Shown here in pieces: positions 32,605 through 48,438 of a stretch of DNA of 59,438 nt. The notes under the pieces are model-generated. The model was not told where the DNA came from. It saw only the letters and a list, made by a program, of their open reading frames with translations, and made no database searches. The stretch lies in assembly GCA_003389385.1 (NCBI GenBank), contig QQVM01000015.1, positions 1 to 59,438 on the forward strand. Direction: 5' to 3'. The number at the start of each line of letters is the position of its first letter. Positions within the stretch are counted from its first letter, which is position 1. The translations under genes and the position numbers were made by a program. This stretch comes from Bacteroidota bacterium. GTDB lineage: Bacteria; Bacteroidota; Bacteroidia; AKYH767-A; 2013-40CM-41-45.

Positions 32605-32631
32605 AAAAGGCCTTCATTCGAAGGCCTTTTT
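32605..32631. terminator. Bidirectional terminator between convergent genes
   Basis: AAAAGGCCTTC (32605-32615) pairs with GAAGGCCTTTT (32620-32630) around a 4-nt loop. There are T residues on the plus strand after it and A residues before it, which read as T on the minus strand. It would serve both the AddB-like gene and the convergent T9SS gene. Confidence 0.88.
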
Positions 32632-32653: not shown

Positions 32654-35590
32654 TCATTCCACAATCAGACGAATGCTTTTGCTATGTTCAGAGCCGGTCA
32701 GGTTTACGAAATAAATACCTGACGAAAGTGGATTGATTTCAAGTATATATGTGTTATCTCCGTAAACGGCATTGATCTGCTCAGTAATTATCTCCTTTCC
32801 TGTCATATCAATGATGCGGCAGATGAATTTTTCAGTTTTGTCGGCTGTGAAGTTCATGTGTGCGAATTGTTTTGCAGGATTAGGGTACATCGTAAAGTTC
32901 AATTCATTTTGATTACTGCTGACTAAGCCTATTCCTGTAGTCGAATAATACACGTTGACCGGACTTGAACTCGTAAAACAATTGCCTCCGCTGTATACCC
33001 TTACACTGTATGTCCCTGCTGCACTCACGGTAATCGACTGTGTGGTGGCGCCAGTAGACCAAAGATAGCCGTTCGCTGTGCTGCTGGTGAGAGTGACTGA
33101 ATCGCCTGGAAGCAGGTAATTTGAACCAGAAAATACAATTGTCGGTATTGGCGGCGGAGTGCAGGTTGATTTGGTAACTACAACCGGAACAGATGTAGCC
33201 GAGCAACCGCTGGAACCTGTTATTGTTACCTGATAAGTACCCGCATCACTCACTGTAATTGCTTGTGTGGAGGCGCCTGTATTCCATGAATAAGAATTAG
33301 ATGAACTCGATGTAAGAGTAACCGTCGGGTTTGTACTGGTAAGGTGAAGGGCGCCGCTGGCACTAACCGTAGGTGTAGCAGGTGCTGTACGCATTGAAAT
33401 CACTGTGTTGGGGGACTGAGTATAGCAGCTTCCTGATGAATAAGCTCTTACCCAGTAAGTGCCGGCTGCGGTCACATCAATGCTTTGGGTAGTTGCGCCT
33501 GTAGACCACAGATATCCGGAGGCAGAGCTCGATGAAAGGGTAGTGGTGTTACCAGGGCACAGGCTCAAAGAGCCATTCACAGAAATCACAGGTGTTGGCG
33601 GGCCCGCATTGGTATTCACAACAGTGTTTGCAGATTGAGTATAACATGAACTGGAACTGTTGAAAACCCTAACCCAGTATGTACCGGCAGTGCTGACGGT
33701 AATACTTTGTGAGGTAGCTCCGTTCGACCAAAGATAAGATGATGCACTGCTGGATGAAAGTGTGACGGAATTGCCCTGGCAGATGTTCAGAGAACCACTA
33801 GCTGTGATGACTGGTGTTGCCGGAGCTGATCCATTAGTGACAACCTGGTTTGCTGATTGTGCATGACATCCGGAAGAATTAAAAGTTCTTACCCAATAAG
33901 TACCGGATGTATTTACAGTGATACTTTGTGTCGTAGCTCCGTTCGACCACAGATATCCGTTCGAACTTGACGATGATGTGAAAGTCACAGTGCTGCCAGA
34001 ACAAAGATTGAGTGATCCGTTTGTAGTGATGGTTGGAACTGATGGTGCAGTTCCAACACTGACAACTTTATTGGCAGATTGTGAAAAGCAATTTCCTGAA
34101 CTGTAGTTTCTGACCCAGTATGTTCCTGCACTGCTCACAGTGATGCTTTGTGTTGTTGCTCCGGTCGACCAAAGATATCCGCCTGCGCTGGGTGAACTAA
34201 GTGTCAGGCTTGTTCCCGGACAAATGGTGAATGGTCCGTTAGCTGTGATAATCGGTACGGGAGGAGGAGATGTGACTGACACAGTTGTGGGAAGAGAAAC
34301 AGCCGTACAAGTGCCAGACGTGGCCTGAACTGTATAAACTCCGGCAGTTGTCACGTTGATTGATTGCGTCGTGGCACCGTTGGACCACAGATAAGTGGAT
34401 GCGCTGCTTGAAGTCAATGTGACGCTGCCGCCTGCACAAAATGAGGTTGATCCGCTAGCTGATATTACCGGTGCTGCCATTGTCGTACCTACTGTAACGT
34501 TTACCGGACTTGAGGTAGCTGACAATCCTGAAGAATTGGTTACTCTTACAGTGTAGGATCCAGAACTGCTCACGACAATCGATTGTGTAGTTTGTCCGCC
34601 GGGACTCCACAAGTAATTACTTCCTGAATTCGCGCTGAGGGTAACACTGCCACCAGTGCAAAAAGTCGTTGGACCGCTGGCAGAAATGCTTGCAGTTGCA
34701 ATGGTCGTCTTTGGCATCGTGCTATACGTGAACCAATGGTAGCCTTGCAGGTTTATGTATTGCTTCCAGCTCCCGGTTTCTGCCGCGTAGTAATTGCTGT
34801 AGGTTTGATAAGGTTTAGTCAGAGGATTGTTCGCAAGCCATGGTCCCATAAAAGAGGATTCACTTGAAAACAGCGATATTACTTTTACAGAACGGTTTGT
34901 TGAGGCGATATCAATAAGTCGGTTTCTGGAATATTGGTATACATCAGAATCATCCTGACGATATGCATGAAGCAGAATCCTGTCAACTGTGTTGGCAATG
35001 TCCTGCATCTGACCTCTGTTTGGCCATCCGAGATACATTTCGGAAATCATGTTATGGGCTGCTGCAAGTGAATCAATTTTCCTCAGTTCAGATTTTGAAA
35101 ACTTGTATGCACCGGCAGTGTCGCAGGAATAGCCGTTCGGAGTAAGGTATTTGTTGCAGTACATAGTTGAAATGCTGGATGAAACCCAGAATTCGAATTC
35201 AAAGTTCAGGACATCGAATTTTTCCGTACTTAAACTCCTGCTGTTATTATAAGGAATAATGTTGTCTCTTACGAAAGAATATATTTCAGTTGCCGCCCCG
35301 ACTTCTGTGATGCCGTACTGTGTTTTCGCCCTTCTGATGAATGAGGCGAGATTGTTCTTTACTGTAGTGTTGCTGTAACTCAGTCCGCTCAGGTCGTAAA
35401 AACAGATGTACGTATAGGCATTGCCCTGAGCATAATTCAAGATTTCATTCTCAAGCGTAGCATTGCCCAGCCAGGAACTTATACTTTTCACGTACATACC
35501 CCTGACATTGTTAACCTGACTGAACGAAAACTTTGAGCTGATAAGTGCTAAACAAAAAAATACCAGAATGAATTTGATCTGTTTTTTCAT
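32654..35590 (-). CDS. T9SS-secreted GH18-like protein with eight Ig-like repeats
   Basis: 978 residues: signal peptide (1-25), a barrel-like catalytic-type domain (about 27-295), eight repeats of about 75 residues with Y-L-W-S-x-G-A-T-T-Q-S-I (about 300-885), and a type A sorting domain (about 900-978). The first domain shows eight hydrophobic strands in order. Strand 4, F-D-V-L-N-F-E-F-E-F-W (125-135), resembles the chitinase GH18 motif F-D-G-x-D-x-D-x-E with Asp changed to Asn and Glu; E133 takes the acid position. D-R-I-L-L-H-A-Y210 resembles the GH18 strand-6 tyrosine motif. Another conserved Glu is E244. Probably exported to the cell surface to bind or cut glycans; activity is inferred. 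A paralogue lies 393 bp upstream. Confidence 0.75.
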   Translation of the reverse strand: MKKQIKFILVFFCLALISSKFSFSQVNNVRGMYVKSISSWLGNATLENEILNYAQGNAYTYICFYDLSGLSYSNTTVKNNLASFIRRAKTQYGITEVGAATEIYSFVRDNIIPYNNSRSLSTEKFDVLNFEFEFWVSSSISTMYCNKYLTPNGYSCDTAGAYKFSKSELRKIDSLAAAHNMISEMYLGWPNRGQMQDIANTVDRILLHAYRQDDSDVYQYSRNRLIDIASTNRSVKVISLFSSESSFMGPWLANNPLTKPYQTYSNYYAAETGSWKQYINLQGYHWFTYSTMPKTTIATASISASGPTTFCTGGSVTLSANSGSNYLWSPGGQTTQSIVVSSSGSYTVRVTNSSGLSATSSPVNVTVGTTMAAPVISASGSTSFCAGGSVTLTSSSASTYLWSNGATTQSINVTTAGVYTVQATSGTCTAVSLPTTVSVTSPPPVPIITANGPFTICPGTSLTLSSPSAGGYLWSTGATTQSITVSSAGTYWVRNYSSGNCFSQSANKVVSVGTAPSVPTITTNGSLNLCSGSTVTFTSSSSSNGYLWSNGATTQSITVNTSGTYWVRTFNSSGCHAQSANQVVTNGSAPATPVITASGSLNICQGNSVTLSSSSASSYLWSNGATSQSITVSTAGTYWVRVFNSSSSCYTQSANTVVNTNAGPPTPVISVNGSLSLCPGNTTTLSSSSASGYLWSTGATTQSIDVTAAGTYWVRAYSSGSCYTQSPNTVISMRTAPATPTVSASGALHLTSTNPTVTLTSSSSNSYSWNTGASTQAITVSDAGTYQVTITGSSGCSATSVPVVVTKSTCTPPPIPTIVFSGSNYLLPGDSVTLTSSTANGYLWSTGATTQSITVSAAGTYSVRVYSGGNCFTSSSPVNVYYSTTGIGLVSSNQNELNFTMYPNPAKQFAHMNFTADKTEKFICRIIDMTGKEIITEQINAVYGDNTYILEINPLSSGIYFVNLTGSEHSKSIRLIVE
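32938..34693 (-). repeat. Eight-fold coding repeat (Ig-like modules)
   Basis: About eight units of roughly 215-225 bp encoding F-C/L-C-x-G-x-x-V-T-L-S-S ... Y-L-W-S-x-G ... G-x-Y-x-V-R modules. Units 3-6 are most similar at DNA level, with near-identical blocks around 33485, 33715, 33930 and 34155. This points to expansion by recombination. The seventh unit is the most divergent. Confidence 0.85.
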
Positions 35591-35924
35591 TTGCAGATTT
35601 TAATTTAATGTTTGAAGAATTCCCCTTTAACACCGGACTTCAGGTTCTGTGCTGCTAATTCTTCCCCTCAGTACAGAGCCGGAATTTTCCCTTTTTCCGA
35701 TGAATCGCCGACGAAGATAATGTGAAATGTAAACGCTGGTTCACCTGTGTTGATAACTTGTCAACAGGCCTGATTTTCAATTGTTGATATACTATCAGAT
35801 ATCGCAGGATTTCTCCAAAATCCTACCCGAAAAAACTAAAAATCCATTGTTTTTTGTACAAACTTGAAATCTGGAGGAAACATGAAAAAATCAAAAATTT
35901 AAAGGTTTAAGAATATCAGAAATG
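35591..35924. promoter_or_regulatory. Intergenic region upstream of the 978-residue T9SS gene
   Basis: About 330 bp without a gene. Two inverted repeats stand close together: CCTGTGTTGA (35744-35753) with TCAACAGG (35761-35768), and TGATA (35785-35789) with TATCA (35793-35797). They could be operator or RNA-structure elements. I find no exact TAnnTTTG for the minus-strand gene. Confidence 0.3.
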
Positions 35925-35962
35925 AAAAAAGCCGGAAACCTTTATTTGGAAAGGCTTCCGGC
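35925..35962 (-). terminator. Terminator of the 798-residue T9SS gene
   Basis: Long stem GCCGGAA-x-CCTTT (35931-35943) with AAAGG-x-TTCCGGC (35950-35962), preceded on the plus strand by six A residues. These form the T-run after the hairpin on the minus strand. It lies 20 bp past the stop. Confidence 0.88.
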
Positions 35963-35983
35963 TGTGTTTACATGTTATTGAAA

Positions 35984-38380
35984 TCAATTGTTTTGAACAA
36001 TGATTTTCTTCATGATCTTCTGTTCTCCCATGAGAATTGTAGCAAAGTAAATTCCGCTTGGAAGTGAATTTGTTTCAAAGTGAATGTTGTTATCACCTTC
36101 AATCAACTGCACCGGATTGTTTATTACAGTTCTTCCGGTCATGTCCATCAAACTGAGCCTACCTGTTTGTTCTTCGTCCACAAGGAAACTAAAGTAAATC
36201 ACTCCGCCTTTGGAAGGATTAGGATATGCAACAAGTTCTCTTTCCTGATCCATGTTTAAGTAGTCATCCGAAATCTTGTTAATGTTCACTACTGAAGCAG
36301 TGTTTCTATTAGATGTCTTGAATGAATTTTTAGCCGAGTATGCGCTACTTACATAGCCGCAAACTGTTTTCACTCTCCATGAATATTTCGCGTTGGCGAT
36401 CAATCCGTTGATCTGGTAGGTATTGACAGAACTGTATGGAAGTCGAACGTACTGGTACACACCTGAGCCATCTCTGGAATACCTGATGATTACACTGTCA
36501 GCCTGCGGAAGTGAATTCCATTTGATAAGGACTGAACTTGTGCTCAGAACAAAGCTGGTTAGACCGCTTGGTACTGTAAGGTTGCAACTTGAAGGATTAA
36601 CTGTGATACTTTGAATGGAAGACATGTTCTTGCAACCTCCGGAATTAGTCACCTCAAGAGAGTAATTGCCGCTGGAAGTAGCCAGATAGATCTGTGAAGT
36701 TGCACCCGGAATCATACTTCCGTCTAGCATCCACTGATAAGCGATGATTGTACCGCTTCCTGCAGATGAATTGGAGTTAAGACTGACGCCGTTTGAAGTA
36801 TTTGTTCCGGCAACGAATGATGAAACAGGTAGATTATTCACATTCACATTTATGCCAGTTGTTGTTGCGGAAGAGCCAGAATTAAACACTTCACATGAAT
36901 AAGACCCGCTTGTATTGACCGTGATGCTGGATCCTGTTTCACCATTAGACCACAGGTATGAAGTGCCACCGCCGGCAGTGAGTGTCACTGTTTCTCCCTG
37001 GCATATGTCCGTATTGCCGCTGGCACTAATTGAAGCCACTGTCACACTCATGGCAGTCGAAGTGCTGCTGCAACCACCCGAATTGCTTACACGAAGTGAG
37101 TAATTACCAGATACTGACGGAGTGAATGTACTTGAAGTTGCTCCGCTTATATTGACTCCATCGTTCATCCACTGGTAAGATGCAATGCTTCCGCTGCCGG
37201 CTGTTGAGTTTGAACTGAGAATTATTCCGCTTTGTGTGCTGCCTCCGGCAGTTATGGTTGCTGTTGGCAAATTATTTACGGTTACTGTGACAGTATTGCT
37301 GGTTGCACTTGCACTTCCGCTGCTCACTTCACAGTTGTATGAGCCTGAAGTTGAAACTGTGATGCTCGCACTTGTTGCTCCGTTTGACCACAAATAATTG
37401 CTTCCTCCTGAAGCAGTCAGAGTGACCGAACCTCCATTGCAAAATGTAGTTGGTCCGGCAGCATTCACAAGCGCAACGATCGGCGCAGGTGCTGCTGTGT
37501 AATTTTTTGGCATGTAACCATAGTGGAACCATTGATATCCTGAGATGTTGATATGCTGCTTCCATGAGTTGTTGTCTGCATTGAAGTCTGTCATGTACTT
37601 GTTGTAAGCCGCTATCTGTGGATTGGAATTCAGCCATGGTCCCATAAAGTCAGGCTCGGCAGAAAAAATCGGAGCAACCTCCACTGTGCGGTTCACTGAA
37701 GCGAAATAACTCAGGCGAGTCTTGCTGTAGCTGTACACTGAACTATTGCTTGTTCTGTAGGCATGAAGCAGTATGCGGTCAACGTTGTTGGCAATCTGTT
37801 GCGCCTGGCCCTGATTGAACCAACCGACATAAGTTTCTGATATCGCATTTTGTATGTTTCCGACTGAATCAATCCTCCTGAGCTGGTCAATAAAAAATCT
37901 GAAGGCACCTGATGTGTCGCATGGGCAGTTGTTCGGAATCAAATATTGTGTGCAGTAATAACCACCAGGATTCACAGAGGAGGAAATCCAGAATTCAAAT
38001 TCCAGATTGAACACATTGAATTTCTCATTAGCATCAGCACGGCTGTTATTGTATGGAACAATTCTGCCTGAAAATGATGAGTAGGATTCTCCCGTCGCTC
38101 CAATGTGTGTTACACCAAAATTTTTAGCTCGCTTGATGAAAGCTGCCATTTTGTTTGCATTGGTTGAATTCGACAGACTTATGTTATGAAGATCATATAA
38201 AGCCATGTAATTGAAAGAACTGTCCTGTGCATAGCGGAGGAGACTGTCTTCTTTTACCGTATTGCCAAGAATCTGGGAGAATTTGCTTACATACATTCCT
38301 CTCAGGACCGGTGTTTGCGCATAACTGAATGTTGTCAGGAAAAGGCAGAGTATGAGAATTCTGAAGTAACTGTGTTTCAT
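35984..38380 (-). CDS. T9SS-secreted GH18-like paralogue with Ig-like and FN3 modules
   Basis: 798 residues: signal peptide (1-21), barrel-like domain (about 23-290) clearly homologous to that of 32654-35590, two pairs of Ig-like modules (about 300-590), a fibronectin type III domain (about 600-700) and a type A sorting domain (about 715-798). The strand-4 motif is F-N-V-F-N-L-E-F-E-F-W (121-131) with E129 in the catalytic position. Y-N-N-S-R-x, D-R-I-L-L-H-A-Y-R and F-M-G-P-W-L are shared with the paralogue. The linker region is entirely different, so the catalytic-type domain is the conserved part. Transcribed separately, with its own terminator. Substrate unknown. Confidence 0.75.
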   Translation of the reverse strand: MKHSYFRILILCLFLTTFSYAQTPVLRGMYVSKFSQILGNTVKEDSLLRYAQDSSFNYMALYDLHNISLSNSTNANKMAAFIKRAKNFGVTHIGATGESYSSFSGRIVPYNNSRADANEKFNVFNLEFEFWISSSVNPGGYYCTQYLIPNNCPCDTSGAFRFFIDQLRRIDSVGNIQNAISETYVGWFNQGQAQQIANNVDRILLHAYRTSNSSVYSYSKTRLSYFASVNRTVEVAPIFSAEPDFMGPWLNSNPQIAAYNKYMTDFNADNNSWKQHINISGYQWFHYGYMPKNYTAAPAPIVALVNAAGPTTFCNGGSVTLTASGGSNYLWSNGATSASITVSTSGSYNCEVSSGSASATSNTVTVTVNNLPTATITAGGSTQSGIILSSNSTAGSGSIASYQWMNDGVNISGATSSTFTPSVSGNYSLRVSNSGGCSSTSTAMSVTVASISASGNTDICQGETVTLTAGGGTSYLWSNGETGSSITVNTSGSYSCEVFNSGSSATTTGINVNVNNLPVSSFVAGTNTSNGVSLNSNSSAGSGTIIAYQWMLDGSMIPGATSQIYLATSSGNYSLEVTNSGGCKNMSSIQSITVNPSSCNLTVPSGLTSFVLSTSSVLIKWNSLPQADSVIIRYSRDGSGVYQYVRLPYSSVNTYQINGLIANAKYSWRVKTVCGYVSSAYSAKNSFKTSNRNTASVVNINKISDDYLNMDQERELVAYPNPSKGGVIYFSFLVDEEQTGRLSLMDMTGRTVINNPVQLIEGDNNIHFETNSLPSGIYFATILMGEQKIMKKIIVQNN

Positions 38381-42089: not shown

Positions 42090-43145
42090 CTAGATTAAAT
42101 CTTTGCAAAGCTTTATCAGTTTTTCTTTTCTTGATGATAATGGATACATATTAATGATTCTTTTCCTTGCATCAATGCCATACTCTTTGTTTTCTGAGTT
42201 AATGGCTTTGCGAATAAGTGATTCAAGTTCTGATGCAGATCTGTGATCAAGAATAAATCCGGTATTTCCGATAATTTCAGGGATTGAAAACACACAACTT
42301 CCAATTGGTACGCATCCGCACAACATCGCTTCACAAAGTGCATTTGGAAATCCTTCTGCCATGCTCAGTTGCAGATAATATTCTGATTCGGAAAACAATT
42401 TTAACAACTCTTCATTCTTAAGTTTTGGAACAAGTCTGATATTATTGTGCTCGGTTGAAAATGGTAGTTTTAATTCGGCACCTGCAATAATAAAGTTGCA
42501 TTCAGGAAACTTCGAAGCGATTTCAATAATGAGGTCAATGCCTTTCAGTTTGTATTGATAGCTTTGATTGAGATTACCTGAGGCAGTTATAAATTGGTTT
42601 TTTATTTTTTTAGAAGGAATGTACAAATCGGGATCATAGCCATTTGTTATTACTGTGAAAGGCTTGTTTAGTTTTCTGTCGAAGGCCAGGTAGCCTTGTA
42701 AGGCGGGATCGTTGCTGCTGTATGTATAAGAGGATTCAACCAATGAATGATGTTTTGGTGCAATATGATTACAAAGTCGAAAGGACATTTTAGTGAACCA
42801 GCCAAGCAACACTTTTTGATAGTTGCCGTAGCCTATTGATGGAAATGAATGGCAGTCGGTTCCTGAAGCCACTATTAAACATGACACCGAGCTGAATTTT
42901 GAAGTGAGTGCAGGTAAAAAGGAATGATAACCTGAGAGCTGGCAAACAAATAATTTTGACCGGAATAAATTCAGAATTATAAAAAAAAACTGATGCATGA
43001 AGAGCAATGGTGTTTTCCATTTCGATATTGAAATGAAATTAAACGATTTAATTTCGAAATCGCCCTGCAGTATTTCAATATCTTTTTTTACAAATGTGGA
43101 ATGACCCACATGAAAATAAAGCAGAAGTGGTTTACGATGATCCAT
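42090..43145 (-). CDS. Family 4 (GT-B) glycosyltransferase
   Basis: 351 residues, GT-B fold. The C-terminal donor domain shows G-I-D-L-I-I-E, the E-x7-E-type motif (S-M-A-E-G-F-P-N-A-L-C-E-A) and a G-C-V-P-I stretch. The N-terminal acceptor domain has a hydrophobic helix near residues 50-60 that suggests membrane association. It is the last gene of a minus-strand trio with two methyltransferases; its start is 1 bp from the neighbouring stop. Sugar specificity unknown. Confidence 0.85.
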   Translation of the reverse strand: MDHRKPLLLYFHVGHSTFVKKDIEILQGDFEIKSFNFISISKWKTPLLFMHQFFFIILNLFRSKLFVCQLSGYHSFLPALTSKFSSVSCLIVASGTDCHSFPSIGYGNYQKVLLGWFTKMSFRLCNHIAPKHHSLVESSYTYSSNDPALQGYLAFDRKLNKPFTVITNGYDPDLYIPSKKIKNQFITASGNLNQSYQYKLKGIDLIIEIASKFPECNFIIAGAELKLPFSTEHNNIRLVPKLKNEELLKLFSESEYYLQLSMAEGFPNALCEAMLCGCVPIGSCVFSIPEIIGNTGFILDHRSASELESLIRKAINSENKEYGIDARKRIINMYPLSSRKEKLIKLCKDLI

Positions 43146-43146
43146 T

Positions 43147-43953
43147 TTACTTTTTTACCCTTGCTGCGGTCATAACACCCGCAGAAAGCAATCTTCCTGA
43201 TGGAAATCTGAAAACTAATTTTTCTATAACCCAAATTAACTTGCTCAAAGTGCGAATGGATTTAATAAATATTTTCTTCAACTTATAGTTAGGAATTCTG
43301 TTTCCGTCGATACCTTCCAAAGTGACTGCAAAACTCACAGAAAGAAAATACCCAGATTGAACAATCGCAAGTCCGGCATCGATTATATGCTTTTCAAGAT
43401 CAGCTTTACTCATTGGAACATGAATATCATATACAGGCCTGTTAAGCCACTTTTGAAGAACACCTGTAACACCTGCCAGATTTGGGATTGAAGTAATCAA
43501 CAGCCCTCCGGGACGCAGAAATTTTGAAAAGGACTCAATTACTTCTTTAGTATTTTCAAAATGTTCAACAACCCCAAATGAGCAAACGACATCGAATTTA
43601 CCCAAGAGAGACGGATCAGGATTCAATGCATCGCCAAGAATAATTCTGCCATTCACGCCCTCTCGTGTTAAAATCCTTTCACTTTGCTTACATCCGAATT
43701 CACTGTAGTCTAGTCCGCTTATCTGAAATCCAAACTCTGATGCAAAGTAAGGAAGCAGCACGGAGTTGCCACATCCGATTTCAAGCAGACTTTTTCCCTT
43801 GCTGTCTTCTCCATTGAATATTTTACTGAAAAGCTTATGGAGTACCTGGTTCGGGTAATTGTTAACTGAAGCAGATTTGTAATTGAATGCCTCGGGAAGT
43901 GTTGCGTTTTCCCAATAAGTTGACCAGTATTTTTCACCTGCTTTGTCTTGCAT
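43147..43953 (-). CDS. SAM-dependent methyltransferase in glycan cluster
   Basis: 268 residues. Class I methyltransferase with motif I L-L-E-I-G-C-G (about 60-66), an acidic motif II (S-G-L-D-Y) and post-I D-V-V-C-S-F-G-V-V-E-H-F. The C-terminal hydrophobic and basic segment may contact the membrane. It sits between a GT4 gene and another methyltransferase with 1-bp gaps, so it probably methylates a sugar or the end of a glycan chain. Target inferred only from context. Confidence 0.83.
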   Translation of the reverse strand: MQDKAGEKYWSTYWENATLPEAFNYKSASVNNYPNQVLHKLFSKIFNGEDSKGKSLLEIGCGNSVLLPYFASEFGFQISGLDYSEFGCKQSERILTREGVNGRIILGDALNPDPSLLGKFDVVCSFGVVEHFENTKEVIESFSKFLRPGGLLITSIPNLAGVTGVLQKWLNRPVYDIHVPMSKADLEKHIIDAGLAIVQSGYFLSVSFAVTLEGIDGNRIPNYKLKKIFIKSIRTLSKLIWVIEKLVFRFPSGRLLSAGVMTAARVKK

Positions 43954-43954
43954 G

Positions 43955-44902
43955 TCAGATATTTTTTATTGCTCTCGCTTCAATGCCATTCCCATCCTCA
44001 TTCAACCAAATATTTTCTGCGCCTAATTTGCGCAGGATGTTTTGGATCTGAGACTTGCTGCGAAGATGTTTGTAGTAGTCCGTTAGTGAATCGTATGTAT
44101 CCAGTCTGCTTAACTGATAATGTGTTCCATAATCCAGTTGAGGATACTCGCGTGTGTATTCAATCAGGGGAGAAATCCTGTGAAGGAGCCACCAGAGAGG
44201 TTTTATATTCCGGGTTTTCCAGTGCAGGGGAAAGAAGAACTTAACGACACTGTTCACGATTTTTTGAGACTTGGATGCTTTCATACTCTTCAGGACATGT
44301 CTCCAAAGTGGTTTCAGATTGAAGTAATACGATAACCTCCATTTGTAATGGTCTATCATTAAGATCCCCCCGGGCTTTACCTTTTTCCATAGTGCCTCAA
44401 TGGTCTTTTCCGGCGAGGGGGTGTGTTGAATTACTCCCAGACAAAACACAATATCAAAACTGTTGTCCGGAAAAGGCAGATTGTAGACACTTGCTTGGGC
44501 CACTACGTAATTAGAGGCATTCCCAATGTTTTTCTTATTGGCCTCAACTGCATTACTGAGATCCACCGCATGAACAATGGCACCACTTCCTACCAGGTGC
44601 TCGGTAAATCTGCCGGCTCCACACCCAAGCTCAAGAATGGTTTTATTTCTGAGTGTTTCAATTTTATCTCCAAGACACCTTTCAATTCTGACCAGGGAAT
44701 GATCTAGCCCGGTTTCACTGTCAAGCTGGGTTCTGGTAAAAGTGTTCCACTGTAGTCCAAATGCAGAAGCGTAATTATCAGAAGGAGTGAATCGCGGAAT
44801 TTCATTCACAATTTCAAAGCTTTCACCTCCAGGTGAAACCAAATGCCCGTTTTGACTGATCAGCTTTTCTCCTGTGTTGGGAGAAACAAATTCTATGAAC
44901 AT
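43955..44902 (-). CDS. SAM-dependent methyltransferase with N-terminal Trm112-like segment
   Basis: 315 residues. An N-terminal piece (about 1-40) resembles the small zinc-ribbon-like start of many sugar methyltransferases but has no cysteines. Then comes a class I domain with I-L-E-L-G-C-G-A-G-R-F, V-D-L-S and D-I-V-F-C-L-G-V-I-Q-H. The C-terminal third is unassigned. First gene of the minus-strand trio, divergent from asnB. Confidence 0.83.
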   Translation of the reverse strand: MFIEFVSPNTGEKLISQNGHLVSPGGESFEIVNEIPRFTPSDNYASAFGLQWNTFTRTQLDSETGLDHSLVRIERCLGDKIETLRNKTILELGCGAGRFTEHLVGSGAIVHAVDLSNAVEANKKNIGNASNYVVAQASVYNLPFPDNSFDIVFCLGVIQHTPSPEKTIEALWKKVKPGGILMIDHYKWRLSYYFNLKPLWRHVLKSMKASKSQKIVNSVVKFFFPLHWKTRNIKPLWWLLHRISPLIEYTREYPQLDYGTHYQLSRLDTYDSLTDYYKHLRSKSQIQNILRKLGAENIWLNEDGNGIEARAIKNI

Positions 44903-44964
44903 ACGCGGGGGTGAAATTAGCTAAATTCCTCAAACCGAACAGAAAATCACTGAAAGTAAATAAG

Positions 44965-44972
44965 TAGATTTG
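44965..44972 (+). promoter_or_regulatory. -7 promoter box TAGATTTG before asnB
   Basis: Exact TAnnTTTG only 10 bp before ATG 44983. The start is fixed by the catalytic Cys2, so the transcript must have a leader of a few nucleotides at most. Confidence 0.5.
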
Positions 44973-44982
44973 TCATGAAATT

Positions 44983-46872
44983 ATGTGCGGAATAAGCGGA
45001 TTCATTGACTTCAACAGGAAGTCAGACAGAGATACTCTCATGCGTATGTCCGGTACCCTCGGACATCGTGGTCCTGACGATAAGGGTCATGAATTTTTTG
45101 AACTCGAAAATTCCGTAATCGGACTCGGATTCAGGAGACTGGCTATCATTGATCTGTCACCTGCAGCACATCAGCCAATGTATAACGCTGATAATGATTG
45201 CTGGATTATCTTCAACGGTGAGATTTATAATTATTCGGAGATCAAAGCTGAGTTGGTTAAATCCGGATTTGCTTTCCATTCAAACTCTGATACTGAAGTT
45301 ATCCTGAAATCTTTTCAGAGGTGGGGGCTTAGTTTTGTTGATAAGCTGATTGGCATGTTTGCCATGTGTCTGTTTGACAGAATTAACGGAAAGATTCACT
45401 TCCTTAGAGACAGGGCAGGAGTGAAGCCTTTGTATTATTATCATCGTGACGGACTTTTTCTTTTTGGCTCAGAACTTAAAGTCCTTCATCAGCATCCTGA
45501 TTTCAGAAAAGAACTCAATGAAGAAGCACTTGGACATTACTTTTCATACGGATACATTCCCGCTCCCTATTCTGTTTTTCAAAATACTTACAAATTGAAG
45601 CCAGGGCATATATTAACCCTGAATCTTGCCAGTGGCCGGCATCATGAAACTAAGTTCTGGGATGTTTTTGATTCTTATAACAGACCTAAAAAATCACCCG
45701 CCTACGAAGAGGCTCTGGAAAGGACTGAAGAGTTGCTCGTTTCAGCCTTTAATTACAGGATGGTATCTGATGTTCCTGTCGGAGTTTTTTTAAGCGGAGG
45801 ATACGACAGTTCATGTGTGACGGCACTGTTGCAGAAAAACAATACATCTAAAATTAAAACTTATACAATTGGCTTTGAGGATGAGAAGTACAACGAAGCT
45901 CCTCACGCTGCGAAAGTTGCTTCTTTTCTGGGAACTGATCATCATGAATATTACTGCACTTATAGAGAAGCTCTTGACCTTGTACCTGAACTTCCGCAAA
46001 TTTTTGATGAGCCCTTTGGCGACCCTTCCGCTGTTCCTACAACTCTTGTTTCAAGACAGGCAAGAAAGCATGTGACCGTAGCTTTGTCTGCTGACGCCGG
46101 CGACGAATTATTCGCAGGATATCCCAGACATAAAAAAAGTCTCTCATTACTCCGGAAAATGTTTCTTTTCCCATCATTTTCAAGAAAATTGCTTTCCAAA
46201 GGATTATCATTCCATTCTGTCGGAGATCTTTCAAAAGACGACAGGCTTGGAAAACTGAAATCATGTCTGGCCTCAGGTGATGTAGTCAAAGCATTTGAAA
46301 TTATTAATCAGACTTATTCTTCAGCGGAGTTGAAGGAGTTATTCATCAGGCAATTAAATCCGCCCCCAACTGTATTTGATGATGGTGCACTGCTCAATGA
46401 TGACAATGACATTCTCAGCAAAATACTTGCAGTTGAGTACAAAACTTATTTGTCTGAGGATATTTTACATAAAGTGGACAGAGCTTCCATGTCTGCAAGT
46501 CTTGAGGGCCGTGATCCCTTTGTAGATCACAGGATAGTGGAATATGTGGCCGGACTGCCTGCGGACTATAAAATGTCCGATGGTATTCAGAAAAAAATGC
46601 TGAAAGACATCGTGCATAAACATATACCGGAGTCTCTCATGAACCGGCCAAAAATGGGCTTTGGAATTCCTTTGCACAAATGGCTCCGCAATGAACTGAA
46701 ACCATTGTTTGATGAGCATATGAATGATGACTTTATTATTCGTCAGGGAATCTTTGACCTGAATACTGTAAGATTATTGCGTAATGCATATCTTGGCGGT
46801 AAACTGCCTCACTTTGAAAAAATCTGGCTGCTCTTTTCATTCCAACTTTGGTACAGGAAGTGGATGTCCTGA
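44983..46872 (+). CDS. asnB: Glutamine-hydrolysing asparagine synthetase (AsnB type)
   Basis: 629 residues. The N-terminal Ntn glutaminase domain begins MCGISGF (Cys2 nucleophile) with L-G-H-R-G-P-D-D and F-N-G-E-I-Y-N. The C-terminal synthetase domain has S-G-G-Y-D-S-S and the late P-K-M-G-F-G-I-P. All catalytic parts are present. In glycan clusters such enzymes often amidate a uronic acid or amino-acid substituent instead of making free asparagine; that is inference from the neighbours. Separated by 93 bp from a flippase gene on the same strand. Confidence 0.92.
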   Translation: MCGISGFIDFNRKSDRDTLMRMSGTLGHRGPDDKGHEFFELENSVIGLGFRRLAIIDLSPAAHQPMYNADNDCWIIFNGEIYNYSEIKAELVKSGFAFHSNSDTEVILKSFQRWGLSFVDKLIGMFAMCLFDRINGKIHFLRDRAGVKPLYYYHRDGLFLFGSELKVLHQHPDFRKELNEEALGHYFSYGYIPAPYSVFQNTYKLKPGHILTLNLASGRHHETKFWDVFDSYNRPKKSPAYEEALERTEELLVSAFNYRMVSDVPVGVFLSGGYDSSCVTALLQKNNTSKIKTYTIGFEDEKYNEAPHAAKVASFLGTDHHEYYCTYREALDLVPELPQIFDEPFGDPSAVPTTLVSRQARKHVTVALSADAGDELFAGYPRHKKSLSLLRKMFLFPSFSRKLLSKGLSFHSVGDLSKDDRLGKLKSCLASGDVVKAFEIINQTYSSAELKELFIRQLNPPPTVFDDGALLNDDNDILSKILAVEYKTYLSEDILHKVDRASMSASLEGRDPFVDHRIVEYVAGLPADYKMSDGIQKKMLKDIVHKHIPESLMNRPKMGFGIPLHKWLRNELKPLFDEHMNDDFIIRQGIFDLNTVRLLRNAYLGGKLPHFEKIWLLFSFQLWYRKWMS

Positions 46873-46965
46873 TTATAAACTTATACTCTGGAGAACAAAT
46901 TGTAAGCCATACAGGGACTGTGATAAAATTATTTATTATTGTCAGCGTTAGCATTTGGCTTTGGC

Positions 46966-48438
46966 ATGGGTGTAATCAAACGTCAGGGAATTAAAAATAC
47001 CATAATTGCCTATACTGGCATGGCAATCGGATTTCTAAATCTGATTGTCATTCAACCTCACTTTCTTACAAAGGAAGAGCTTGGACTGACGAGAATCCTC
47101 TATTCGTTTGCACTCTTGCTTGCGATGATGGTTCCGCTCGGAATCGGCAATGCGACTGTGAAATTTTTTCCACTCTTCAAGGATCCGGACCGCAAGAACC
47201 ATGGCTTTTTCGGTTTTATGAGTTTGTTTCCATTGGTTGGTTACATAATCACAGCTGCCTTGATTTTTATCTTCAAGGATTTTATTCTAGACCAATTCAG
47301 GACTGAGTCTCCGCTTTTTCTGGAGTTCTTCGATTATGTTTTCCCGCTGATATTCTTCAATGCTTTTATTGCAGTCTTCGCTGTCTATTGTAATGTGAAT
47401 TTTAAAACGACAATTCCGACATTTCTCAACGATATTCTTGTCAGAGTGTTAACCGTCATTTTGGTTTCGGTTTACTATTTGAAATGGTTGAGCCTGGATG
47501 GTTTTATTGCTTGGTTTACAGCCATATACGGAATTCAATTAGGATTGCTTCTTCTTTATATTTTCATTTTCGATAAGCCAAAAATAAAAATTGACTGGTG
47601 GGTTATCAGGGAGAAGAAATTCTTTGAGCTAATGCGCTATGGACTCTTGCTTTGGTTTGCAGGAGTCGCATCATTGGGTTTGAAGTATTTTGACTCTATC
47701 ATGATTGGCAAATTCATGGCTCTGAGTTTCGTTGGTATATACACAATTGCAGCTTTTGTTCCAACCATCATTGAGGCTCCGCTGAATGCCTTCGAGCGAA
47801 TAGCCGGTTCCAAAATAGCCTTTGCCTGGTCTGAAAATGACTTGAGTCAAATTCAGTCGATCTACCAAAAATCATCGCTATATATGTTCATGGCAGGAGG
47901 GTTTCTGTTTCTTCTGGTCAATCTGAACATTCATACACTTCTTCAATTTCTGCCTGAAGGCTATCAGCAAGGCGAGCTTGTGGTCATTATCATAAGCATT
48001 GGCACTCTGTATAACATGGCTACAGGCTTAAATGCTCCCGTTCTGTTCAATTCTGATAAATACAGATACGGTGCTGTCTATCTCATTGTTCTCGCAATAG
48101 TCATCCTGTCTCTTCAGATGTTGCTTATTCCGCTTTTCGGAATATACGGCGCTGCAATTGCAACGTCTGTGGCTGCCTTTATTTACAATTCACTTCTTCT
48201 GTTCACTGTATGGAAGTTCTTTAAACTTCAGCCTTTTGACAAGAATAACCTCTGGGTTCTATTTTCTATAATGCTGGTTTTTGCAGCATTGTTTTTTATT
48301 CCGCATCATCATAGCAGATACCTGGACATCCTGTTGAGGTCAGGGTTAGCCACGCTCATGTATTTTTCTCTGATCCGCTACAAAGGTTTGCTTCCTGATT
48401 TCGGAGATATGATGCCCTGGAAAAAAGTGAAATTCTGA
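46966..48438 (+). CDS. Oligosaccharide flippase (MOP superfamily)
   Basis: 490 residues and about 14 membrane helices (I-K-N-T-I-I-A-Y-T-G start, typical of Bacteroidota polysaccharide exporters). A TTG at 46939 is in frame but partly overlaps a near -7 box (TATTATTG, 46934-46941). I therefore choose ATG 46966. It abuts the convergent YihY gene with no spacer between stop codons. Confidence 0.85.
   Translation: MGVIKRQGIKNTIIAYTGMAIGFLNLIVIQPHFLTKEELGLTRILYSFALLLAMMVPLGIGNATVKFFPLFKDPDRKNHGFFGFMSLFPLVGYIITAALIFIFKDFILDQFRTESPLFLEFFDYVFPLIFFNAFIAVFAVYCNVNFKTTIPTFLNDILVRVLTVILVSVYYLKWLSLDGFIAWFTAIYGIQLGLLLLYIFIFDKPKIKIDWWVIREKKFFELMRYGLLLWFAGVASLGLKYFDSIMIGKFMALSFVGIYTIAAFVPTIIEAPLNAFERIAGSKIAFAWSENDLSQIQSIYQKSSLYMFMAGGFLFLLVNLNIHTLLQFLPEGYQQGELVVIIISIGTLYNMATGLNAPVLFNSDKYRYGAVYLIVLAIVILSLQMLLIPLFGIYGAAIATSVAAFIYNSLLLFTVWKFFKLQPFDKNNLWVLFSIMLVFAALFFIPHHHSRYLDILLRSGLATLMYFSLIRYKGLLPDFGDMMPWKKVKF

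Follow-up and report, generated by a model that had tools for sequence, protein, structure and literature searches.

What do two neighbouring secreted proteins do when the domain that they share belongs to no catalogued family? This question is raised by contig QQVM01000015.1 of a Bacteroidota bacterium (assembly GCA_003389385.1), whose 59,438 nucleotides, here called the window, carry two genes, A and B, for the proteins P0001 and P0002. An earlier reading of the letters alone (the sequence-only reading) took both for cargo of the type IX secretion system (T9SS) that begin with a barrel like that of glycoside hydrolase family 18 (GH18), with a rewritten catalytic motif. By its alignments and predicted structure, we assign the domain to an uncatalogued, glycosidase-like family of triosephosphate isomerase (TIM) barrels with a near-invariant pair of acids, from which we infer its function.

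Family and predicted fold of the shared domain

The first approximately 300 residues of P0001 and P0002 are 50% identical over 303 amino acids (aa; E 6e-105), and the claim that this homologous domain has no assigned family stood up to every catalogue searched. No Pfam family matched the barrel domain at E ≤ 1 when both whole proteins were scanned, and a scan of 24 members (alignment A2) gave just five stray single-member matches (E 0.039-0.36). NCBIfam recognises both proteins through their sorting domain alone, with one stray match in P0002 to acylphosphatase (E 0.12; 12.6 bits, where the cut-off is 108). Sequence searches of the PDB with barrel A (query P0003) and with alignments A1 and A3 returned no convincing match. 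The open-access literature that we searched, which cannot show absence from print, held nothing to the point on the family.

AlphaFold2 models were built on 24-row alignments, one per barrel, and scored highly (table 1). Both contain eight barrel strands in a beta-alpha succession of strands and helices. The models thus predict, with high confidence, an eight-stranded TIM barrel for both N-terminal domains, as had been proposed. The presumed acid Glu (E133 in P0001, E129 in P0002) also lies where it was expected, at the C-terminal end of strand 4. In barrel A, strand 4 spans model residues 103-106, followed directly by E131 (model 107), with E133 at model 109; in barrel B it spans model residues 102-106, the last of which is the first Glu of the E-x-E motif.

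Foldseek searches of the PDB gave modest matches (best E 2.7e-5, top match 8pxv), a GH20 hexosaminidase B and a GH18 among them. We took a second look at Foldseek's top 1000 with VIA-align. Among the 50 neighbours listed per model, nearly all were glycoside hydrolases, with Z of 14.2-16.5 over 217-254 residues. The first match of barrel A was Cwp19, a GHL10 protein (Z 16.5, 240 residues, root-mean-square deviation 3.5), with GH1 entries tied within 1 Z, followed by GH164, PgaB (Z 15.6; we take its C-terminal domain to be GH153), GH39 and GH5. The GH18 chitinase 6k7z reached Z 14.8 over 218 residues. Its alignment pairs model residues 4-272 with chain residues 2-269, so that strand 4 of the model would fall on strand 4 of 6k7z, provided that the alignment is sequential. 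The list for barrel B was similar and included endo-beta-N-acetylglucosaminidases (ENGases), namely 6kpn and EndoS2 (8q5u), at Z 14.5-14.6. The expected match to GH18 was thus obtained, but as just one of several glycosidase folds with similar Z. The fold search points to a glycosidase-type barrel, and no single family stands out.

Profile comparison, a test of limited power, showed no link between the domain and GH18. PF00704 (GH18) had no match up to E 1 in P0001, P0002 or any of the 24 A2 members, and hhalign gave the barrel-family alignment A3 a probability of 0.4% against GH18, 3.3% against GHL10 and 3.7% against GH5. As a yardstick, GH18 itself scored 66% against GHL10, 68% against GH5 and 98% against a weak GH18 subgroup. 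Plain membership of GH18 is rejected on the absent PF00704 match together with the hhalign value. The domain may still be a more remote relative, because three other pairs of known barrel families score only 0.8-5.6% (GHL10-GH5 5.6%, weak GH18-GHL10 4.5%, weak GH18-GH5 0.8%). PF03644 (GH85) and PF02638 (GHL10) were likewise not among the Pfam matches of the window proteins or the 24 A2 members. In the source genome PF00704, PF02638, PF00150 and PF03644 had no match at E ≤ 1e-10, and at the same threshold GH85 matched none of 198 genomes of the class. GH18, GHL10 and GH5 yardstick loci (L087-L147) were scanned together with the relatives, and none was among the 56 family open reading frames (ORFs) described below.

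Conserved residues and a candidate mechanism

Relatives were collected in two ways. Named genomes were scanned with two seed patterns, of which the E-x-E motif was one, and this yielded 17 loci that are all Bacteroidota by title; other genomes were searched with proteins or profiles. The 35-row alignment (A3) combines 11 pattern-seeded rows, the window's own two and 22 from protein and profile searches; all of these 22 have E-x-E. It leaves out L069, L077, the L060 fragments and near-duplicates, all of which enter a wider tally of the 56 non-identical ORFs in the collected loci (E ≤ 1e-5). Here 53 have E-x-E, one has E-x-D (L077), one has D-x-E (L069) and one, an L060 fragment, lacks the site. 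The match of L069 is partial (111 aligned residues); with Asp at -2, two residues before the acid Glu, it looks like an intermediate. The L060 relative (G192:C67) is split over two reading frames, so that either the gene is broken or the sequence contains an error.

Mean column identity over the 35 rows is 22%, and the only invariant columns are E131, E133 and Y186. The first two belong to the strand-4 motif, which reads as originally described, F-D-V-L-N-F-E131-F-E133-F-W in P0001 and F-N-V-F-N-L-E127-F-E129-F-W in P0002. Y186, a Tyr on strand 5, had not been pointed out in the sequence-only reading, and neither had E184 on the same strand (27/35) or E244 on strand 7 (23/35). D203 and Y210 are each found in 33 of the 35 rows and W135 in 31; Phe or Tyr precedes E133 in 25, and 26 have an acid in the column of D126 (24 Asp, 2 Glu). 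The sequence-only reading is thus supported on the Tyr of strand 6 (Y210) and the Trp of strand 8 (W286, in 28/34).

That the acidic pair is nearly invariant speaks for an enzyme and against a lectin. Pseudo-enzymes usually lose the catalytic acid, whereas here 53 of the 55 ORFs with the site keep E-x-E, and the other two differ from it by a Glu/Asp swap. A non-catalytic glycan-binding barrel serving adhesion, the second option of the sequence-only reading, would fit the Ig-rich, adhesin-like tails (Ig, immunoglobulin) and the altered GH18 motif, and non-catalytic relatives of GH18 do exist, among them xylanase inhibitors, concanavalin B and narbonin (PMC11216935, accessible part). The domain also occurs, however, in compact single-domain proteins (L063, L065) and in phage-type loci. 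Of the two options first offered, the enzyme therefore gains from the near-invariance of both acids, and we regard the pseudo-enzyme as improbable.

The strand-4 site resembles that of GH18; by sequence the domain is not a member. GH18 enzymes (PF00704; chitinases and endo-beta-N-acetylglucosaminidases) have the motif SxGG on strand 3, DxxDxDxE on strand 4 and MxYD on strand 6. Besides the predicted TIM fold, the barrel family shares the spacing of the acidic motif and the acid Glu at its end, the D126 column at the position of the first Asp, a Tyr on strand 6 and a Trp on strand 8. It differs in reading D/NxxNxExE, with Glu for Asp at -2 and, in 20 of 34 members, Asn for Asp at -4. On strand 6, barrel A has HAYR, and none of the 35 rows has the Met at -2 or the Asp at +1 of that Tyr; on strand 3, it has VGAATE in place of SxGG. 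When 14 strong GH18 loci were compared, 13 had DxxDxDxE and the remaining one, L099, had Asn at -4 (DGINIDFE), so Asn at -4 alone also occurs within GH18. Nor need the -2 residue of a substrate-assisted enzyme be Asp, because GH85 has Asn there. In the GH85 ENGase Endo-A, the catalytic set is N171, E173 and Y205: the acetamido group of the substrate is the nucleophile, the acid is E173, Y205 is close to the oxygen of the acetamido group and the N171A change abolishes hydrolysis (PMC2646837, accessible part). GH85 and the barrel family are alike in having a non-Asp residue two before the acid Glu and a Tyr soon after it, but the -2 residue is Asn in one and Glu in the other, and Glu and Tyr are 32 residues apart in GH85 against 53 in the barrel family. 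Human chitotriosidase uses three residues to serve the acetamido group and the oxazolinium: Asp138, which exchanges the acetamido proton; Tyr212, which pushes the carbonyl oxygen; and Trp358, which stabilises the oxazolinium (PMC12502790, accessible part).

We think that the barrel is probably a glycosidase-type enzyme of some mechanism. Our best explanation as a whole is more tentative, and we give it somewhat less than an even chance: each protein would be a Sec- and T9SS-exported retaining endo-hydrolase that cuts a polymer of 2-acetamido sugars by substrate-assisted catalysis. A relative in which the barrel is fused to a laminin-G/concanavalin-like module (L068) was counted in favour. After export, the barrel would be held off the cell surface on its Ig modules. 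Its core would consist of the E131-x-E133 pair that ends strand 4, one Tyr each from strand 5 (Y186) and strand 6 (Y210), and W286 of strand 8 as an aromatic floor. E133 would protonate the leaving group as acid/base while the substrate's own acetamido group attacks, giving retaining cleavage; E131 would orient or charge-balance the acetamido group, as Asp does in GH18 and Asn in GH85, while the two Tyr would hold its oxygen. By analogy with these enzymes, E131, E133, Y186, nearly always Y210 and mostly W286 could be the parts that such catalysis needs; their roles, the mechanism and the class of substrate are what we infer.

Several points weigh against this explanation. The conservation of E-x-E is partly by construction, since the motif served as a seed pattern and was fixed in later search profiles. 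W286 is missing in 6 of 34 members, while E184 and E244 are well conserved and left unexplained by the mechanism. The profile comparison shows no link to GH18, and in the Foldseek searches, with their modest E-values, aldolases, epimerases and aldose reductases scored nearly equally. To our knowledge, no activity has been reported for any member of the family, and we know of no citable enzyme with Glu at the -2 position.

The unexplained E244 bears on a different assignment, a retaining glycosidase of the clan GH-A type, in which E133 on strand 4 would be the acid/base and the nucleophile would be E244, where strand 7 ends; it would not need a 2-acetamido substrate. A Glu stands just after strand 7 in both models, the column is E or D in 24 of 35 members, and GH1, GH5, GH39 and GH164 enzymes account for many of the top fold matches. 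In the other 11 members, however, position 244 is Arg, Leu or Tyr, and all of these keep E131 and E133. Clan GH-A enzymes have an Asn-Glu pair on strand 4, which is not seen in the barrel family, where the aromatic residue before E133 prevails; the hhalign probability against GH5 is the 3.7% given above. PgaB offers a precedent, its acids likewise being on strands 4 and 7 (PMC5765458, accessible part). Its C-terminal domain is similar in fold but has Asp466 instead of E-x-E (same source) and gave no PDB sequence match. Cwp19, the best VIA-align match, differs too: its strand-4 acid, Asp196, lies beside Asp195, and strand 7 has a Gly (PMC5765458, accessible part); GHL10 scores 3.3% by hhalign. 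Overall we consider a clan GH-A enzyme rather unlikely.

The near-equal Foldseek scores raise a further alternative, an enzyme of other chemistry, such as an inverting hydrolase, a lyase, a transglycosidase or one of a non-glycosidase reaction. A TIM barrel alone leaves the chemistry unfixed, and other acids are available for such a role, namely E102 on strand 3 (18/34) and E184 on strand 5 (P0003 numbering). Against this, the VIA-align matches listed are nearly all glycoside hydrolases, and strand 4, at whose end the invariant pair lies, is also where the acid of clans A and K is located. A conserved His metal site is also unlikely, as no His column reaches 80% identity in the 35 rows. We judge other chemistry unlikely, and substrate-assisted hydrolysis remains our preferred reading.

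The gene pair, its export and its neighbourhood

Genes A and B were confirmed at the positions that the sequence-only reading gives; they lie head to tail, 393 bases apart (table 1). Each has a terminator-like hairpin 3' of it, and for this reason they are probably separate transcripts; nine such hairpins were observed across the window against 5.0 in shuffles.

Table 1. Positions of the barrel genes and their parts in the window.
Feature	Positions	Strand	Content or basis
Gene A (P0001, 978 aa)	32654..35590	-	Signal peptide, TIM barrel, eight Ig-like modules, T9SS type A tail
Signal peptide of gene A, residues 1-24	35519..35590	-	Sequence, read by eye
Barrel domain A, residues 25-298, predicted (beta/alpha)8 barrel	34697..35518	-	Model pLDDT (predicted local distance difference test) 95.1, pTM (predicted template modelling score) 0.91
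E131-x-E133, end of strand 4, barrel A	35192..35200	-	Model and alignments
Eight Ig-like modules of gene A	32891..34696	-	Pfam scan
T9SS type A C-terminal sorting domain, gene A	32660..32890	-	Pfam, NCBIfam
Terminator-like hairpin 3' of gene A	32605..32630	-	Consensus match only
Gene B (P0002, 798 aa)	35984..38380	-	Signal peptide, TIM barrel, four Ig-like modules, FN3-like module, T9SS type A tail
Barrel domain B, residues 22-301	37478..38317	-	Model pLDDT 94.0, pTM 0.90
E127-x-E129, end of strand 4, barrel B	37994..38002	-	Model and alignments
FN3-like module, gene B	36332..36571	-	Pfam match below cut-off
T9SS type A C-terminal sorting domain, gene B	35996..36226	-	Pfam, NCBIfam
Terminator-like hairpin, 14 pairs, between genes B and A	35930..35963	-	Consensus match only

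That the two are T9SS cargo is supported. Both proteins have, by eye, a signal peptide at the N-terminus, and both C-termini score over the cut-off as type A sorting domains (Pfam Por_Secre_tail, NCBIfam TIGR04183). Export by T9SS is credible because the source genome encodes SprA (2654.9 bits) and has no fewer than 150 matches to Por_Secre_tail (150 of 215 candidates scored).

Between barrel and sorting domain, the Pfam scan found the eight Ig modules expected in P0001. The tail of P0002, described as Ig plus FN3, does have Ig-like modules, four of them, but its FN3 match stays under Pfam's cut-off. The statement that the proteins diverge completely after the barrel was too strong: in a like comparison the tails are 37% identical, against 52% for the barrels, and have an Ig type in common. 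The suggestion that the barrel is the selected part fits the orthologues (6 of each type), whose barrels are 59-73% identical against 40-56% for the tails, figures that repeats inflate, and 21-42% for the T9SS tail; tail length varies.

In a tree of 45 rows (L028, L029 and L064 left out), the B copies group at 99/99 and the A side, 13 rows including a third paralogue and L039, at 100/99. Since A and B copies form separate supported groups, their duplication is old and predates the compared genomes. The third barrel paralogue is found in other genera of the taxonomic family (L016, L017 and L018, in G009, G006 and G005) as a 100/100 clade inside the A side, with no source-genome row of the tree within it. 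In counts that include the source genome, protein and profile searches found the family in 11 of 61 relatives (E ≤ 0.001), a draw from the class found the family in 23 of 395 (alignment A1, E ≤ 1e-5) and a draw from the phylum in 4 of 395 (alignment A3). The last two are different draws with at most 6 candidates scored per genome, and both are lower bounds.

In the window, a putative porin gene (PF14121) is followed by a PD-(D/E)XK nuclease, the barrel pair, an asparaginase and a PKD/CHU_C gene. This order is kept whole at L031; L034 has all but the PKD/CHU_C gene and L036 all but the asparaginase, and short or end-cut contigs (L032, L033, L035, L040) hold parts of it. Ten neighbours were scanned and included, besides these four, glycosyltransferase, methyltransferase, asparagine-synthase and Polysacc_synt genes; none was SusC/SusD or a glycosidase at E ≤ 1e-5. 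A polysaccharide utilisation locus was rejected as the principal reading on this result. At 42090-48438 lie a glycosyltransferase, two methyltransferases, an asparagine-synthase-like gene and a Polysacc_synt gene, partly conserved in L036 and L040. They are probably a surface polysaccharide cluster near the barrel pair, and it is possible, from this gene content, that the barrel trims the cell's own polymer.

Further barrels in the genome and in phages

The source genome holds six such barrels. Two paralogues are long multi-domain proteins, on C4 (1186 aa) and C1 (1180 aa), and two are short and lie among phage-type genes. One short barrel (L149:8841-9962; C1:25840-26961 of the source genome) is in a run of genes that includes a terminase small subunit (L153) and an integrase, in a prophage-like element that also holds a DUF5675 protein and most of whose genes have no PHROG match. 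The other (L148:9349-10344; C15:12348-13343) is near RecT and helicase genes and has, by eye, a lipobox-like signal. A 35-kb metagenomic viral contig (IMGVR_UViG_3300048839_001537) carries a 58% identical barrel copy (L152:5755-6954) with a head protease nearby. L149 and L152 have in common the order barrel, PAS protein, small membrane protein. The last has one or two hydrophobic stretches, one of two being the N-terminus, and no PHROG or Pfam name. This was the only viral contig found in our scans: a second scan with the phage-type alignment A5 gave it again, 133 pattern matches among viral contigs scanned with A2 included no relative, and tblastn of the prophage copy against phages and of barrel A (P0003) against plasmids gave no match. 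The gene order suggests an envelope-acting role of the barrel in phages, and the phage copies may possibly be unrecognised lysins.

Other fusions and tails were seen along the way. The barrel is joined to a laminin-G domain at L068 and to a NosD-like N-terminal region, below the Pfam cut-off, at L059; L064 is similar by eye. Three large proteins of the source genome (L150:980-7138, L150:11327-15100 and L151:6046-9603), one with an E-x-E barrel, have a similar tail (ESADFSL after a D-L-x-G stretch), which by eye looks more like a calcium-binding, dockerin-like repeat than like the T9SS tail found elsewhere. Among viral models (BFVD), the best fold match was an uncharacterised Terrestrivirus protein, A0A3G4ZKF2 (E 5.9e-11, TM score 0.73, 16% identity), compared by fold alone; it leads the next (4.1e-6) by nearly five orders of magnitude in E-value. 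On the models, a variant of the barrel fold may reach giant viruses or their hosts.

A broader picture is speculative, and we give it only a small chance. E-x-E and the strand-5 Tyr would mark a new glycosidase family, perhaps a clan, that T9SS surface enzymes share with small lipoprotein-like forms and with phages of Bacteroidota. The phage copy near the small membrane protein would be an unrecognised lysin or envelope-opening enzyme, while the host's duplicated surface copies would cut its own or a neighbour's amino-sugar polymer. If the enzyme reading of the barrel is true, an enzyme family of unassigned substrate would be added to the secreted repertoire of the Bacteroidota, with six copies in this genome alone and members in the class genomes counted above.

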